A stretch of DNA of 64,000 bases from positions 1,116,001-1,180,000 of the forward strand of contig NZ_JAJIRT010000001.1 of assembly GCF_025717675.1 (NCBI RefSeq). The letters run 5' to 3'. The notes under the pieces are model-generated. The model saw only the letters and a list, made by a program, of their open reading frames with translations, was not told where the DNA came from and made no database searches. Shown here piece after piece: positions 41,653 to 55,787 of the stretch. Numbering within the stretch: the stretch's first letter is position 1; every line of letters starts with the position of its first letter. Position numbers and translations under genes: made by a program. The DNA is from Paucibacter sp. DJ2R-2. Its GTDB lineage: Bacteria > Pseudomonadota > Gammaproteobacteria > Burkholderiales > Burkholderiaceae_C.

Positions 41653-43812
41653 ATGAACGCCATGACGAACAAGATCCGGCCTGCCCACAAGGCTCTGGTG
41701 ATGGCCTGCCTGGCCCTGCTGAGCAGCGGCGCCAGCTTCGCGCAAACGAGCACACCGAGCTACCCCGCGACCGCCAAGGTCGAGCAGACCGACAACTACC
41801 ACGGCACGGCCGTGGCCGACCCCTACCGCTGGCTGGAGGACGACAACAGCCCGCAGACCAAGGACTGGGTCAAAGCCCAGAACCAGGTCACCGACGCCTA
41901 CCTCGCGGCCATGCCGCAGCGCCTGGCGGTGCGCAAGCTCTACACCGAGCTCTACAACTTCGAGAAATTCGGCGTGCCCTTCAAAGAAGGCGGCCGCTAC
42001 TTCTGGACGCGCAACAACGGCCTGCAACAGCAATCGGTGCTCTATACCGCCAAGTCGCTCAAGGACCAGCCCAGCATCGCCCTGGACCCGAACACCCTGA
42101 GCCAGGATGGCACCGTGTCGATCAGCGGTTATGCACCTTCGCCCAATGGCAAGCTGCTGGCCTACGGCAGCTCCAAAGCCGGCTCTGACTGGCAGACCTG
42201 GAAGGTGCGTGACCTCAGCACCGGCCGCGACCTGCCCGATGCCATCGAATGGGTGAAGTTCTCCAGCGCCACCTGGACGCCCGACGGCAAGGGCTTCTTC
42301 TACTCGCGCTACGACGCACCGGCCGAGGGCGCAGCCCTGACCGGCGCCAACTATTTCCAGAAACACTTCTACCACCGCCTGGGCACGCCGCAGTCGGCCG
42401 ATGTGCTGGTGGCCGCCAACCCGCAGGAAAAGGAATGGGGCTTCGGCAGCAGCGTCTCCGATGACGGCAAGCTGCTGATCATCAATGTCTGGAAGGGCGG
42501 CTCCAAGAACGGCCTGATGGTGCTGCCCTTGGTCAAAGGTGGCTTTGCCGGCGGCGAGCCCAAGGCCATCAGCCTGGCTTTCGATGCGCAATACCAGGCC
42601 GTGGGCCTGAACGGCAACAGCCTGATCGTCAAGACCGACAAGGACGCGCCGCGCGGCCGCCTGATCACCGTCGACCTCAAGGCTTCGGGCAAGGAAGCCT
42701 GGAAGACCCTGGTGGCCGAGGGCCCCGACGCCATGACCGGCGCCTCCGCCGTGGGCGGCCGCCTGCTGCTGAGCTATCTGCGCGACGCCTCCACCCTGGT
42801 GCGCCGCCACGGCCTGGACGGCAAGCTGCAGGGCGAGGTGCAGCTGCCCGGCGTTGGCACTGCCAGCGGCTTCGGCGGCCGCGTGCAGGACCGCGAGACC
42901 TTCTTCAGCTACACCAGCCTGACGACGCCCAGCGCCGTCTACCGCTATGACGTGGCTGCCAACAAGGTCAGCCTGTTCAAGCGCCCGCAGACTGCCTTCG
43001 ATGCCGATCAGTTCGAGACCCACCGCGAATTCGTCACCAGCAAGGACGGCACCCGCTTCCCCATCTTCCTGGCCCACAAAAAGGGCCTGAAGCTGGACGG
43101 CACGAACCCGACCCTGCTCTACGGCTACGGCGGCTTCAACGCCTCGATGACGCCCAGCTATGGCATCACCTCGGCGGCCTGGATGAAGATGGGCGGCGTC
43201 TATGTGCTGGCCTCGATCCGCGGCGGTGGCGAGTACGGCTCGGCCTGGCACGAAGCCGGCACCAAGCTGAAGAAGCAGAACGTGTTCGACGACTTCATCG
43301 CCGCCGGCGAATGGCTGGTGGCGCAGAAGTACACGCAGCCGGCCAAGCTGGCCATCAACGGCGGCTCCAACGGCGGCCTGCTGGTCGGCGCGGTGCTCAA
43401 CCAGCGGCCCGAGCTGTTCGGCGCGGCCGTGCCCCAGGTCGGCGTGATGGACATGCTGCGCTTCCACAAGTTCACCATCGGCTGGGCCTGGGTGCCGGAC
43501 TACGGTTCGTCCGAGAACGCCGAGGAGTTCAAGGCCCTGGCCGCCTACTCGCCGCTGCACACCATCAAGTCGGGCGTGAAATACCCGGCCATCATGGTCA
43601 CCACCGGCGACCACGACGACCGCGTCGTGCCGGCGCACAGCTTCAAGTACACGGCAGCCCTGCAGGCCGCCGACACCGGCCCGGCGCCCAAGCTGATCCG
43701 CATCGAGACGCAGGCCGGCCACGGCGCCGGCAAGCCGACCTCCAAGATCATCGAGGAACGTGCCGACATGCTGGCCTTCTTCGCCAACACCTTCCAGATG
43801 AGCGCGCCCTGA
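41653..43812 (+). CDS. Secreted prolyl oligopeptidase (S9A), first copy
   Basis: The 719-residue protein has a signal peptide (to about GASFAQ, residue 31), an N-terminal seven-bladed propeller that begins DPYRWLEDDNSP, and a C-terminal alpha/beta hydrolase domain. The catalytic triad is S572 (GGSNGG), D655/D656 (GDHDDRVV) and H690 (QAGHGAG). It should cut small peptides after proline in the periplasm or outside the cell. The ATG at 41653 has GGAAAG upstream. It opens the peptide-processing cluster and is followed after 48 bases by the first M16 protease gene. Confidence 0.93.
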   Translation: MNAMTNKIRPAHKALVMACLALLSSGASFAQTSTPSYPATAKVEQTDNYHGTAVADPYRWLEDDNSPQTKDWVKAQNQVTDAYLAAMPQRLAVRKLYTELYNFEKFGVPFKEGGRYFWTRNNGLQQQSVLYTAKSLKDQPSIALDPNTLSQDGTVSISGYAPSPNGKLLAYGSSKAGSDWQTWKVRDLSTGRDLPDAIEWVKFSSATWTPDGKGFFYSRYDAPAEGAALTGANYFQKHFYHRLGTPQSADVLVAANPQEKEWGFGSSVSDDGKLLIINVWKGGSKNGLMVLPLVKGGFAGGEPKAISLAFDAQYQAVGLNGNSLIVKTDKDAPRGRLITVDLKASGKEAWKTLVAEGPDAMTGASAVGGRLLLSYLRDASTLVRRHGLDGKLQGEVQLPGVGTASGFGGRVQDRETFFSYTSLTTPSAVYRYDVAANKVSLFKRPQTAFDADQFETHREFVTSKDGTRFPIFLAHKKGLKLDGTNPTLLYGYGGFNASMTPSYGITSAAWMKMGGVYVLASIRGGGEYGSAWHEAGTKLKKQNVFDDFIAAGEWLVAQKYTQPAKLAINGGSNGGLLVGAVLNQRPELFGAAVPQVGVMDMLRFHKFTIGWAWVPDYGSSENAEEFKALAAYSPLHTIKSGVKYPAIMVTTGDHDDRVVPAHSFKYTAALQAADTGPAPKLIRIETQAGHGAGKPTSKIIEERADMLAFFANTFQMSAP

Positions 43813-43860
43813 GCGATCAGTGCGAGCTTTGACCTAACTCCTGATTTCAACGAGGTGCAT

Positions 43861-54053: not shown

Positions 54054-54251
54054 AATCCATGCCGAATGGCACCCCCCGGTTCGCCGCCCCCTGGTGGGAA
54101 CCCGCAGAAAGCGCCAGCGCAGCCGCGGCGACAATACGCGCCGCAGCCGCCGTGAGCACCCTCTCGGCGGCTTGTCCTTTGTAGCGCCGCTCAAGAGGGA
54201 TCGGGGCCGGCCAAGGATTTCTCATCCATCAGACCAAGAACGGAGAGTCGT

Positions 54252-55787
54252 TTGAACACAAAAATTCAAACCGCGGGGCCCAACACCATCCTCGGCCACC
54301 CCAACAGCCTGTTTGTCTTGTTCTTCACAGAAATGTGGGAACGCTTCTCCTATTACGGCATGCGCGCCCTGCTGGTGCTGTTTCTGATCTCGGAAACCAC
54401 CAAGGGAGGCTGGGGCTGGAGCCGTGCTGAAGCCACCTCGCTGTATGGCTGGTACACCATGCTGGTGTACTTCACCCCCATCCTGGGCGGCTACCTGGCC
54501 GACCGTTACCTGGGCACACGCCGAGCCGTGGTGCTGGGCGGCTTCATCATCGCCGCCGGCCATGTCTCGCTGTTCTTTGAAACCATTCCGTCCTTCTACC
54601 TGGGCCTGGGCCTGGTGATTGCGGGCACGGGCCTGTTCAAACCGAACATCTCGGCCATCGTCGGCCAGCTCTACAACAAGGACAACGAAGGCAGCCGTGA
54701 CGGCGGCTACACCTTGTTCTATATGGGCGTGAACGCCGGTGCCTTCTTCGGCATTTCGCTGTGCGGCTACATCGGTGAGAAGGTGTCCTGGAACCTGGGC
54801 TTCGGTCTGGCCGGTGTCTTCATGATCCTGGGCGCCCTGCAGTTCTTCTTCAGCCAGAAGGTGTTCGGCGACATCGGCACCGCGCCGAGCAAGGAAAAGA
54901 CTGCCGCCGCCCAAGCCGTCGACGACACGCCCGCCCATGTGGTGGCCGATCGCCTGAAGGCTGTCTTTGTGTTCGCCTTCTTCACCATCTTCTTCTGGTT
55001 TGCTTTCGAGCAAGCTGGCGGCTCCATGACCATCTTCGCGGCCGACTACACCGACCGCACCCTGGTCGGCACCAGCGGCCTGATCTTCAAGATCGTCAAC
55101 ACGCTGATGACGGTGATCCCGGCGGCCGTCCTGACCTGGCTGTTGTTGCAGTTGCATCTGGCCACCGGCAAGAGCCAATGGTTGGGCAATCTGCTGCTGG
55201 TCCTGGCCTTCGCCATGATCTGGGGCTTGGTGATCTGGATGCTGGGCCGCGAGTTCGCCATGGACCAAAGCGAAGTGCCGGCCACCTGGTTCGGCGTGCT
55301 GAACTCTTTCTTCATCGTGATCCTGGCACCTGCGTTCTCCAAGCTGTGGGAGAAGCACTGGAACCCGAGCGGCCCGGTCAAGTTCGGCGTCGGCCTGGTG
55401 TTGCTGGGCCTGGGCTTTGCCGCTCTGGCCTATGGCGCTTCGGGCATCCCCTCGGGCGCCAAGACCGCGCAGATCAGCATGCTCTTCCTGTGCTTGGCCT
55501 ATCTGCTGCACACCATGGGTGAGCTGTGCGTGTCGCCGGTGGGCCTGTCCTACATCTCCAAGCTGGCCCCCGCGCGCCTGCTGGGCCTGATGTTCGGCGT
55601 CTGGTTCCTGAACTCGGCCATCGCCAACTTCATCGCCGGCAAGACCGGTGCCTACATCGACTACATCTCCTCGACCTACTCGATGTCCACCTTCTTCCTG
55701 ATCTTCACCGTGATCCCGGCCGCCGCCGGCCTGGTGCTGATGGCGCTGGCGCCCTGGATGAAGAAGAAGATGCACGGCGTGCACTGA
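54252..55787 (+). CDS. POT/PTR2-family peptide:proton symporter
   Basis: The 511-residue inner-membrane protein has about 14 membrane segments and the POT signature ExxERFxYYG as E27-M-W-E30-R31-F-S-Y-Y-G. FKPNISAIVGQLY follows in the second signature region, and family motifs such as GELCVSPVGLSYISKLAP stand near the end. It should import di- and tripeptides with protons, like DtpA. It starts with TTG at 54252, with GGAGAG eight bases upstream; no ATG gives a complete N-terminus. A strong terminator follows. With the peptidases and receptor just upstream it could complete a peptide-uptake route. Confidence 0.94.
   Translation: MNTKIQTAGPNTILGHPNSLFVLFFTEMWERFSYYGMRALLVLFLISETTKGGWGWSRAEATSLYGWYTMLVYFTPILGGYLADRYLGTRRAVVLGGFIIAAGHVSLFFETIPSFYLGLGLVIAGTGLFKPNISAIVGQLYNKDNEGSRDGGYTLFYMGVNAGAFFGISLCGYIGEKVSWNLGFGLAGVFMILGALQFFFSQKVFGDIGTAPSKEKTAAAQAVDDTPAHVVADRLKAVFVFAFFTIFFWFAFEQAGGSMTIFAADYTDRTLVGTSGLIFKIVNTLMTVIPAAVLTWLLLQLHLATGKSQWLGNLLLVLAFAMIWGLVIWMLGREFAMDQSEVPATWFGVLNSFFIVILAPAFSKLWEKHWNPSGPVKFGVGLVLLGLGFAALAYGASGIPSGAKTAQISMLFLCLAYLLHTMGELCVSPVGLSYISKLAPARLLGLMFGVWFLNSAIANFIAGKTGAYIDYISSTYSMSTFFLIFTVIPAAAGLVLMALAPWMKKKMHGVH

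Follow-up and report, generated by a model that had tools for sequence, protein, structure and literature searches.

Do the peptidase, receptor and transporter genes that lie side by side in a Paucibacter genome form one system for feeding on peptides? We addressed this question in a 64,000-nt window of a contig of Paucibacter sp. DJ2R-2, to which the coordinates given below refer unless a locus is named. An earlier note on this DNA had proposed that a prolyl oligopeptidase (S9A), a catalytic and a non-catalytic M16 protease (M16a and M16b), a TonB-dependent receptor (TBDR), a second prolyl oligopeptidase (S9B) and a POT peptide symporter, together with a PAS-AraC regulator, constitute a two-stage locus of peptide capture, cutting and uptake. 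All of these genes were found where it had placed them (Table 1). The window nevertheless contains two separate neighbouring units, S9A-M16a-M16b and TBDR-S9B with a convergent PAS-AraC gene, and the proposed five-gene system is not supported. With a probability of roughly 0.6, our reading is that the locus consists of these two units and that the second of them, hereafter the cassette, imports and cleaves (hydroxy)proline-rich, collagen-type peptides.

The receptor-peptidase cassette and the adjacent protease unit

The boundary between the units is visible in a close relative, G011 (locus L040), whose genes from EamA to POT and beyond are colinear with the window at 85-92% DNA identity, with 200 bp (11274-11473) in place of window positions 46682-53061 (6.4 kb). 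Compared gene by gene, TBDR, S9B and AraC are the missing genes, and POT is retained. Within a genus sample of 18 genomes, an M16a ortholog (E ≤ 1e-150) was present in nine and a receptor match (E ≤ 1e-170) also in nine, three of which (the window genome, G007 and G012) carry the cassette receptor (at least 91% identity) and six a protein that is about 40% identical to the window TBDR. M16a occurs without the cassette receptor in 6/18 genomes (G001, G002, G003, G005, G006 and G011; G002 is 76% complete). The M16 block is present in each of the three genomes of the genus that carry the cassette; it lies 12.4 kb from the cassette on the same strand in G012 (Paucibacter sp. Y2R2-4) and on a separate contig in G007. 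Among the cassette loci examined, the M16 pair touches TBDR in the window alone, and neither M16a nor M16b was found in the fetched DNA, 4 to 10 kb upstream, of the cassette loci outside the genus (G024, Inhella, Pseudoduganella, G167, G296 and L050). The five-gene neighbourhood that the earlier note suggested looking for in other Burkholderiales is hence not conserved, Y2R2-4 with its 12.4-kb interval being the exception besides the window. What stood of the joint capture and cutting locus is the pairing of TBDR with S9B, which is conserved and whose genes overlap; a place for S9A and the M16 pair in that system is not supported.

The gap between M16b and TBDR, 195 bp long, holds a stem-loop followed by T8 (z = -2.38; 7/200 shuffles fold equally well) that the earlier note did not contain, and a comparable stem with a T-run was seen by eye, unfolded, 3' of M16b in G011 and G002. 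By contrast, 48 bp separate S9A from M16a and 25 bp separate M16a from M16b. A further terminator-like stem at 52928-52949 resembles, again by eye, the stem 3' of M16b in G002 and G011, which fits either insertion or loss of the intervening genes. We considered and rejected the idea that the window lineage acquired the cassette recently by horizontal transfer. Because fourfold-site identities between the window and G012 are alike across the locus (TBDR 0.76, S9B 0.78 and AraC 0.82, with S9A 0.77, M16a 0.73, M16b 0.71 and POT 0.78), vertical descent within the genus followed by loss in G011 appears at least as likely.

The segment from M16b to orf178/MerR (46697-53531) is a variable spot in the genus: in G011 nothing is added there, whereas the window has the cassette, G012 has the cassette preceded by some 12 kb of other genes, and G003 has other genes. 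In G024 (L036), S9A is followed directly by POT, and the cassette lies elsewhere in the genome; this S9A-POT pair (L036:7814-11652) is tighter than that in the window.

TBDR-S9B, usually accompanied by PAS-AraC, is a cassette that stands among different neighbours in several Burkholderiales genera. A related-locus search with the receptor returned nine loci in named genomes (Paucibacter sp. Y2R2-4, two Burkholderiales metagenome-assembled genomes, Inhella proteolytica, three Pseudoduganella and two Undibacterium), and whole-genome searches added receptor loci in G024, G167, G296 and G331; of the other handles, G271 duplicates the Inhella contig, G012 corresponds to Y2R2-4 and G007 to one of the metagenome-assembled genomes. 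S9B directly follows the receptor at all of these loci except the two of Undibacterium, which have no S9B beside the receptor, with the proviso that the contig ends inside S9B in L050 and inside the receptor in L064 (G331), where S9B is not visible. The earlier note had read the S9B start as lying on the receptor stop codon, and this is correct: the genes overlap by one base in the sequence TGATG, S9B starting on the last base of the TBDR stop codon. The stop/start overlap recurs in 8/11 loci with both genes (seven TGATG and one overlap of four bases), the remainder being the three Pseudoduganella loci with gaps of 5, 5 and 15 bases. TBDR and S9B identities are correlated (r = 0.955 over 55 non-independent pairs from 11 loci, the S9B of L050 being cut by the contig end).

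PAS-AraC is convergent on S9B in the window, where 23 bp separate the two genes, and in L048, L049, L035, L051, L052 and L061. The L062 copy is on the same strand as S9B with one gene between them, and no copy was found in L053 or L054. Five AraC proteins were run against Pfam, and all of them contain PAS_4. In a tree of 40 S9 proteins, which took 20 of the 120 database proteins listed, ten cassette S9Bs fall within one clade of 18 (support 100/99), apart from stand-alone relatives; the remaining eight members are database entries whose gene neighbourhood is not known, and the bootstrap values had not fully stabilised. Searches of the genera around G296 (1/3), G167 (1/16) and G024 (1/1) returned only the known copies. 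An order-wide search found the cassette in the window genome alone (1/399) and a family-wide search found it in 6/399 genomes including that of the window, with the two best candidates per genome scored and the known carriers G007 and G012 outside the sample. A sigma-70 promoter scan gave none against 1.5 expected.

The receptor query had 18 matches in the window genome, a number that includes fragments of a single gene, and source names for the relatives of TBDR are generic or 'iron complex' receptor. Contig 29 of the same genome carries a second TBDR-S9 pair (L088:5446-10598), with 30% identity to the window TBDR and 22% (partial) to S9A, and neighbouring matches in G002, G004, G008, G009 and G011 suggest that this pair recurs in the genus.

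Hydroxyproline and collagen genes around the receptor family

Hydroxyproline-type genes lie beside the receptor family in 5/9 chromosomal contexts and in 0/21 control loci (347 kb), with p = 0.0009 calculated from the same data that prompted the hypothesis. The neighbours comprise 4-hydroxyproline epimerase, DAO-type dehydrogenase, DapA-type deaminase, Xaa-Pro peptidases and, in one case, an M9 collagenase. They were counted with tblastn (E ≤ 1e-20, identity of 30% or more across at least 60% of the query) and grouped by chromosomal context; the control loci surround other S9, M16 and TBDR genes and are not matched one to one. When Undibacterium, which has no S9B, is left aside, the count is 4/8. 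The idea came first from L050; the evidence from L087, from L056 and from the counting of collagenases was obtained afterwards.

In L050, genes for a DAO-type dehydrogenase, an alpha-ketoglutaric-semialdehyde-type aldehyde dehydrogenase (ALDH), a DapA-family protein and a GntR regulator lie upstream of the receptor, and L064 contains the same set. We take the families in L050-type clusters to be those assigned to hypO, hypD and hypH. L061 with L087 combines TBDR-S9B-AraC with C69, M24, GntR, DapA-like, ALDH and DAO genes. The S9B-TBDR pair of L062 is accompanied by an M24 peptidase, a DAO-type dehydrogenase, PAS-AraC and a 4-hydroxyproline epimerase that scores above its NCBIfam cut-off (443.5 vs 442), and L035 has a single proline-racemase-family gene. 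In Undibacterium, whose loci were read from plain open reading frame lists, L056 (Undibacterium macrobrachii) has a receptor ortholog without S9B together with an M9 collagenase, a proline-racemase-family gene, an M24 peptidase and a pyrroline-carboxylate reductase above its cut-off (403 vs 322). These genes and two divergent TBDRs lie within 11 kb (L056:1978-12811), a compact candidate collagen-utilisation locus. Because the ALDH of L054 (39% identical to that of L050) scored best as a succinate-semialdehyde dehydrogenase (639.9; cut-off 646) and a tartrate dehydrogenase gene is adjacent, it was not counted as a hydroxyproline gene.

The window genome has a hydroxyproline-type cluster of its own on contig 1 at about 698.6-704.0 kb, with an epimerase at 458.9 against a cut-off of 450, as well as three M9 collagenase-family matches. 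M9 was found in 6/8 cassette genomes and in 7/22 of the others searched (Fisher p = 0.049, a test that ignores relatedness), and in 0/14 control genomes. The M9 search covered all 17 other genus members, both other genomes of the G296 genus and 5/15 others of the G167 genus. The cassette genomes without it are G296 and G331 (88% complete).

Proposed function and rival explanations

S9B has the build of a prolyl-oligopeptidase-type S9 peptidase, with an N-terminal propeller and a C-terminal catalytic domain, and the alignment to S9A, to which it is about 30% identical, shows that the catalytic residues S563, D647 and H678 are kept; it is indeed a second, diverged prolyl oligopeptidase, as had been claimed. 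Each of the ten full-length cassette S9Bs has the Ser and His motifs, Asp having been examined in the window copy alone. Because the nearest solved relative of S9B, 4hvt (396 bits), is named a post-proline cleaving enzyme, S9B is predicted to cut after proline.

From the gene content, the modularity, the conserved overlap, the S9B triad residues and the neighbourhood association with hydroxyproline genes, all of which were observed here, we infer a substrate, a cleavage preference, a direction of flow and a mode of regulation as follows. TonB energy would drive proline- and hydroxyproline-rich peptides, for instance pieces of collagen or gelatin, through TBDR, and in the periplasm S9B, made from the overlapping start codon, would cleave these peptides after proline. 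The short products would be imported by inner-membrane carriers, possibly including the POT symporter, and Xaa-Pro peptidases and the hydroxyproline pathway would then degrade them. The cassette is probably under the control of PAS-AraC. S9A and the M16 pair may use the same food source, but no observation made here connects them with the receptor. Prolyl oligopeptidases have a size limit of roughly 30 residues and 3-hydroxyproline occurs in collagen, and both fit this model. A bolder version, on which we would not quite bet at even odds, is that TBDR-S9B-PAS-AraC forms a self-contained and so far undescribed locus for peptide utilisation, equivalent for proteinaceous substrates to a polysaccharide-utilisation locus. 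Its TonB-energised importer would be made in a fixed ratio to a periplasmic post-proline endopeptidase of its own by way of the overlapping codons and would be dedicated to collagen-type (proline/hydroxyproline) oligopeptides; the unit as a whole would be shuffled between genera and link up with the hydroxyproline pathway of each host.

Several observations weigh against a (hydroxy)proline-rich substrate. The hydroxyproline cluster of the window genome lies about 459 kb from the cassette, and the window locus itself is without such genes. PF05544, the proline-racemase/epimerase family, is nearly genus-wide (above cut-off in 16/18 genomes, some of which have no cassette), so that its distribution in the genus does not follow that of the cassette; the M9 count within the genus is also weak (3/3 cassette genomes vs 7/15 others). 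The tblastn queries included genes from L035, L050, L061 and L062 themselves, although queries from the hydroxyproline cluster of the window genome also match all five contexts (31-60% identity). G024 has a single hydroxyproline-type gene, one of the two Undibacterium loci has none, the Undibacterium receptors have no adjacent S9B, and in L056 the second TBDR sits between the collagenase and the cassette-family receptor. Several pathway annotations fall below curated cut-offs, namely ALDH (460 vs 770), trans-3-hydroxyproline dehydratase (354 and 363 vs 540) and D-amino-acid dehydrogenase (181 vs 383), and no characterised member of this particular receptor family was found. The remaining points, that 4/9 contexts (this genus, Inhella and both Pseudoduganella) have no hydroxyproline genes in the fetched DNA, that a cyanophycinase, which points to another polymer, neighbours the cassette in L052 and that an S46 peptidase lies near the L055 receptor, are also what would be expected if the cassette were an importer of general or other specificity whose S9B trims proline-containing peptides, the hydroxyproline genes nearby being the result of a loose grouping of amino-acid catabolic genes. 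We regard that explanation as rather unlikely, since hydroxyproline-type or Xaa-Pro neighbours recur in four lineages with S9B (or an S9B cut by the contig end) and in one without, and the control loci have no such genes. In L052 (Pseudoduganella guangdongensis), the cyanophycinase (TIGR02069, 135.6 vs 126.6) and a second TBDR follow AraC (9890-15014), and this region is possibly a cyanophycin uptake locus.

The single two-stage uptake locus of S9A, the M16 pair, the receptor, S9B and POT is very unlikely: adjacency in the window, the shared strand in Y2R2-4 and the presence of the M16 block in every cassette-bearing genome of the genus would suit it, and the terminator-like stem between the units, the six genus genomes with M16a and no cassette, the separate contigs of G007 and the cassette loci outside the genus at which the M16 pair was not found all argue against it; the two units may nevertheless cooperate in function while being unlinked. 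Still less credible is a system that imports and opens a threaded lasso peptide, which the earlier note had offered as a parallel. Atxe2-type isopeptidases are S9-fold peptidases next to a TBDR, an arrangement shared by S9B, which also has a weak similarity to their model; yet the parallel breaks down at family level, because S9B scores 28.1 bits against a cut-off of 400 (NF033523), over the catalytic core only, and the solved structures nearest to it are those of post-proline cleaving enzymes. Among the ten locus genes given to Pfam and NCBIfam, none was recognised as a lasso precursor or maturation gene, a comparison that included no search aimed at them.

We see next to no chance that the locus pirates ferredoxin or another protein in the manner of FusA/FusC, the other parallel that had been drawn, in which a TBDR works with a periplasmic M16 protease. 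FusC (924 residues) and PqqL (931 residues) are single chains (PMC12731061), whereas the M16 protease of the window is encoded by two genes (463 + 472 residues). M16a scores 159 bits against 3amj and only 44 against PqqL (6oft, 6ofs) and 55 against 6b03, the highest-scoring single-chain 'putative zinc protease', so that the likeness does not hold at family level, and the receptor-M16 adjacency seen in this one genome is not conserved at the other loci seen. M16a and M16b have the adjacent HxxEH-bearing and inactive subunits of a split M16B heterodimer and resemble SPH2681/SPH2682 of Sphingomonas sp. A1, whose catalytic and non-catalytic subunits are likewise separate and of about 45-50 kDa (3amj; PMC12731061); they are a predicted heterodimer that, unlike that pair, is preceded by a prolyl oligopeptidase, and they do not belong to the receptor cassette. 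The top solved relatives are the active subunit of a zinc peptidase (3amj_C) and a zinc peptidase (3ami_A) for M16a, both at 159 bits, and 3gwb (133 bits) and the inactive subunit 3amj_B (112 bits) for M16b.

Import of (hydroxy)proline-rich peptides by the cassette would have precedents. TBDR-linked use of hydroxyproline and collagen has been predicted in Alteromonadales from hydroxyproline/proline regulons of the GntR regulator HypR, and the pathway comprises enzymes of the kinds found in L050, according to Leyn et al. 2016 (PMC5343134). Our loci belong to another bacterial order, and section 11 of that paper mentions neither a prolyl oligopeptidase overlapping the receptor nor PAS-AraC; the comparison is by description. 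A TBDR with collagen genes has also been predicted in a Colwellia metagenome-assembled genome: the collagen-utilisation cluster of Colwellia BB5 combines an M9 collagenase, a TBDR, Xaa-Pro peptidases, 4-hydroxyproline epimerase and D-hydroxyproline dehydrogenase, of which L056 is a likeness in miniature, and the passages of PMC7883544 consulted name no prolyl oligopeptidase in it. The cassette, unlike that cluster, occurs in several unrelated contexts and is unlinked from pathway genes in this genus. A literature search, to which most subscription journals were outside, returned no paper combining a TonB-dependent receptor, a prolyl oligopeptidase or endopeptidase and hydroxyproline, and none combining a collagenase, a TonB-dependent receptor and a prolyl oligopeptidase. 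The overlapping TBDR-prolyl-oligopeptidase pair with PAS-AraC was thus not found in the literature searched, although the receptor-linked use of hydroxyproline or collagen has already been predicted. TBDRs are numerous in these bacteria, and a partner gene together with scattered neighbourhoods that point to one nutrient class provides a testable peptide substrate; a receptor with an assigned nutrient class offers a route to assigning other orphan receptors. The cassette also points to a possible route by which Burkholderiales that possess M9 collagenases could acquire the oligopeptides that these enzymes release.

Gene inventory of the locus and further observations

Table 1. Features of the region, with positions in the 64,000-nt window
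Feature	Position	Strand	Evidence
S9A, classical prolyl oligopeptidase with leader peptide	41653-43812	+	PF02897 400 bits, PF00326 215 bits
M16a, catalytic subunit of split M16 protease, 463 aa	43861-45252	+	HLFEH at residue 73
M16b, non-catalytic M16 subunit, 472 aa	45278-46696	+	HxxEH absent
Terminator-like stem and T-run 3' of M16b	46728-46763	+	folded stem and T8
TBDR, TonB-dependent receptor, 940 aa, first cassette gene	46892-49714	+	PF07715 69.5 bits, PF00593 118.4 bits
S9B, prolyl-oligopeptidase-type peptidase with leader peptide	49714-51852	+	PF02897 74.6 bits, PF00326 173.6 bits
PAS_4-AraC regulator, convergent on S9B, third cassette member	51876-52655	-	Pfam PAS_4
Small open reading frame between AraC and POT
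MerR regulator, CadR/PbrR-like, outside the cassette	53532-53990	-	TIGR02047 135.6 bits, below cut-off 151
POT oligopeptide:H+ symporter	54252-55787	+	PF00854 178 bits; TIGR00924 298 bits (cut-off 130)

Both the Plug domain and the beta-barrel of TonB-dependent receptors are present in TBDR; among solved structures, its plug region alone was matched (CirA, BtuB and others, at most 45 bits). The top solved relative of S9A is the prolyl oligopeptidase 7vgb (678 bits). The leader peptides of S9A, M16a, M16b and S9B appear to be of Sec type as judged by eye.

The POT gene does lie downstream, as the earlier note had stated; a MerR gene and a small open reading frame that it did not mention intervene, and POT is not a conserved neighbour of the receptor. 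No metal exporter was recognised beside the MerR gene in the window. A gene whose product starts with MSAHCC lies near MerR in G003, G006, G007 and G012; the G003 copy, the one run against Pfam, falls in the cation efflux family. Because such a gene is close by in these four genomes and no metal exporter was recognised in the window, the MerR gene of the window may be an orphan.

The window genome encodes a second split M16 pair on contig 29 (L089:4468-15836; 27% identity to M16b and 33% to M16a), which lies about 5.6 kb from another TBDR.

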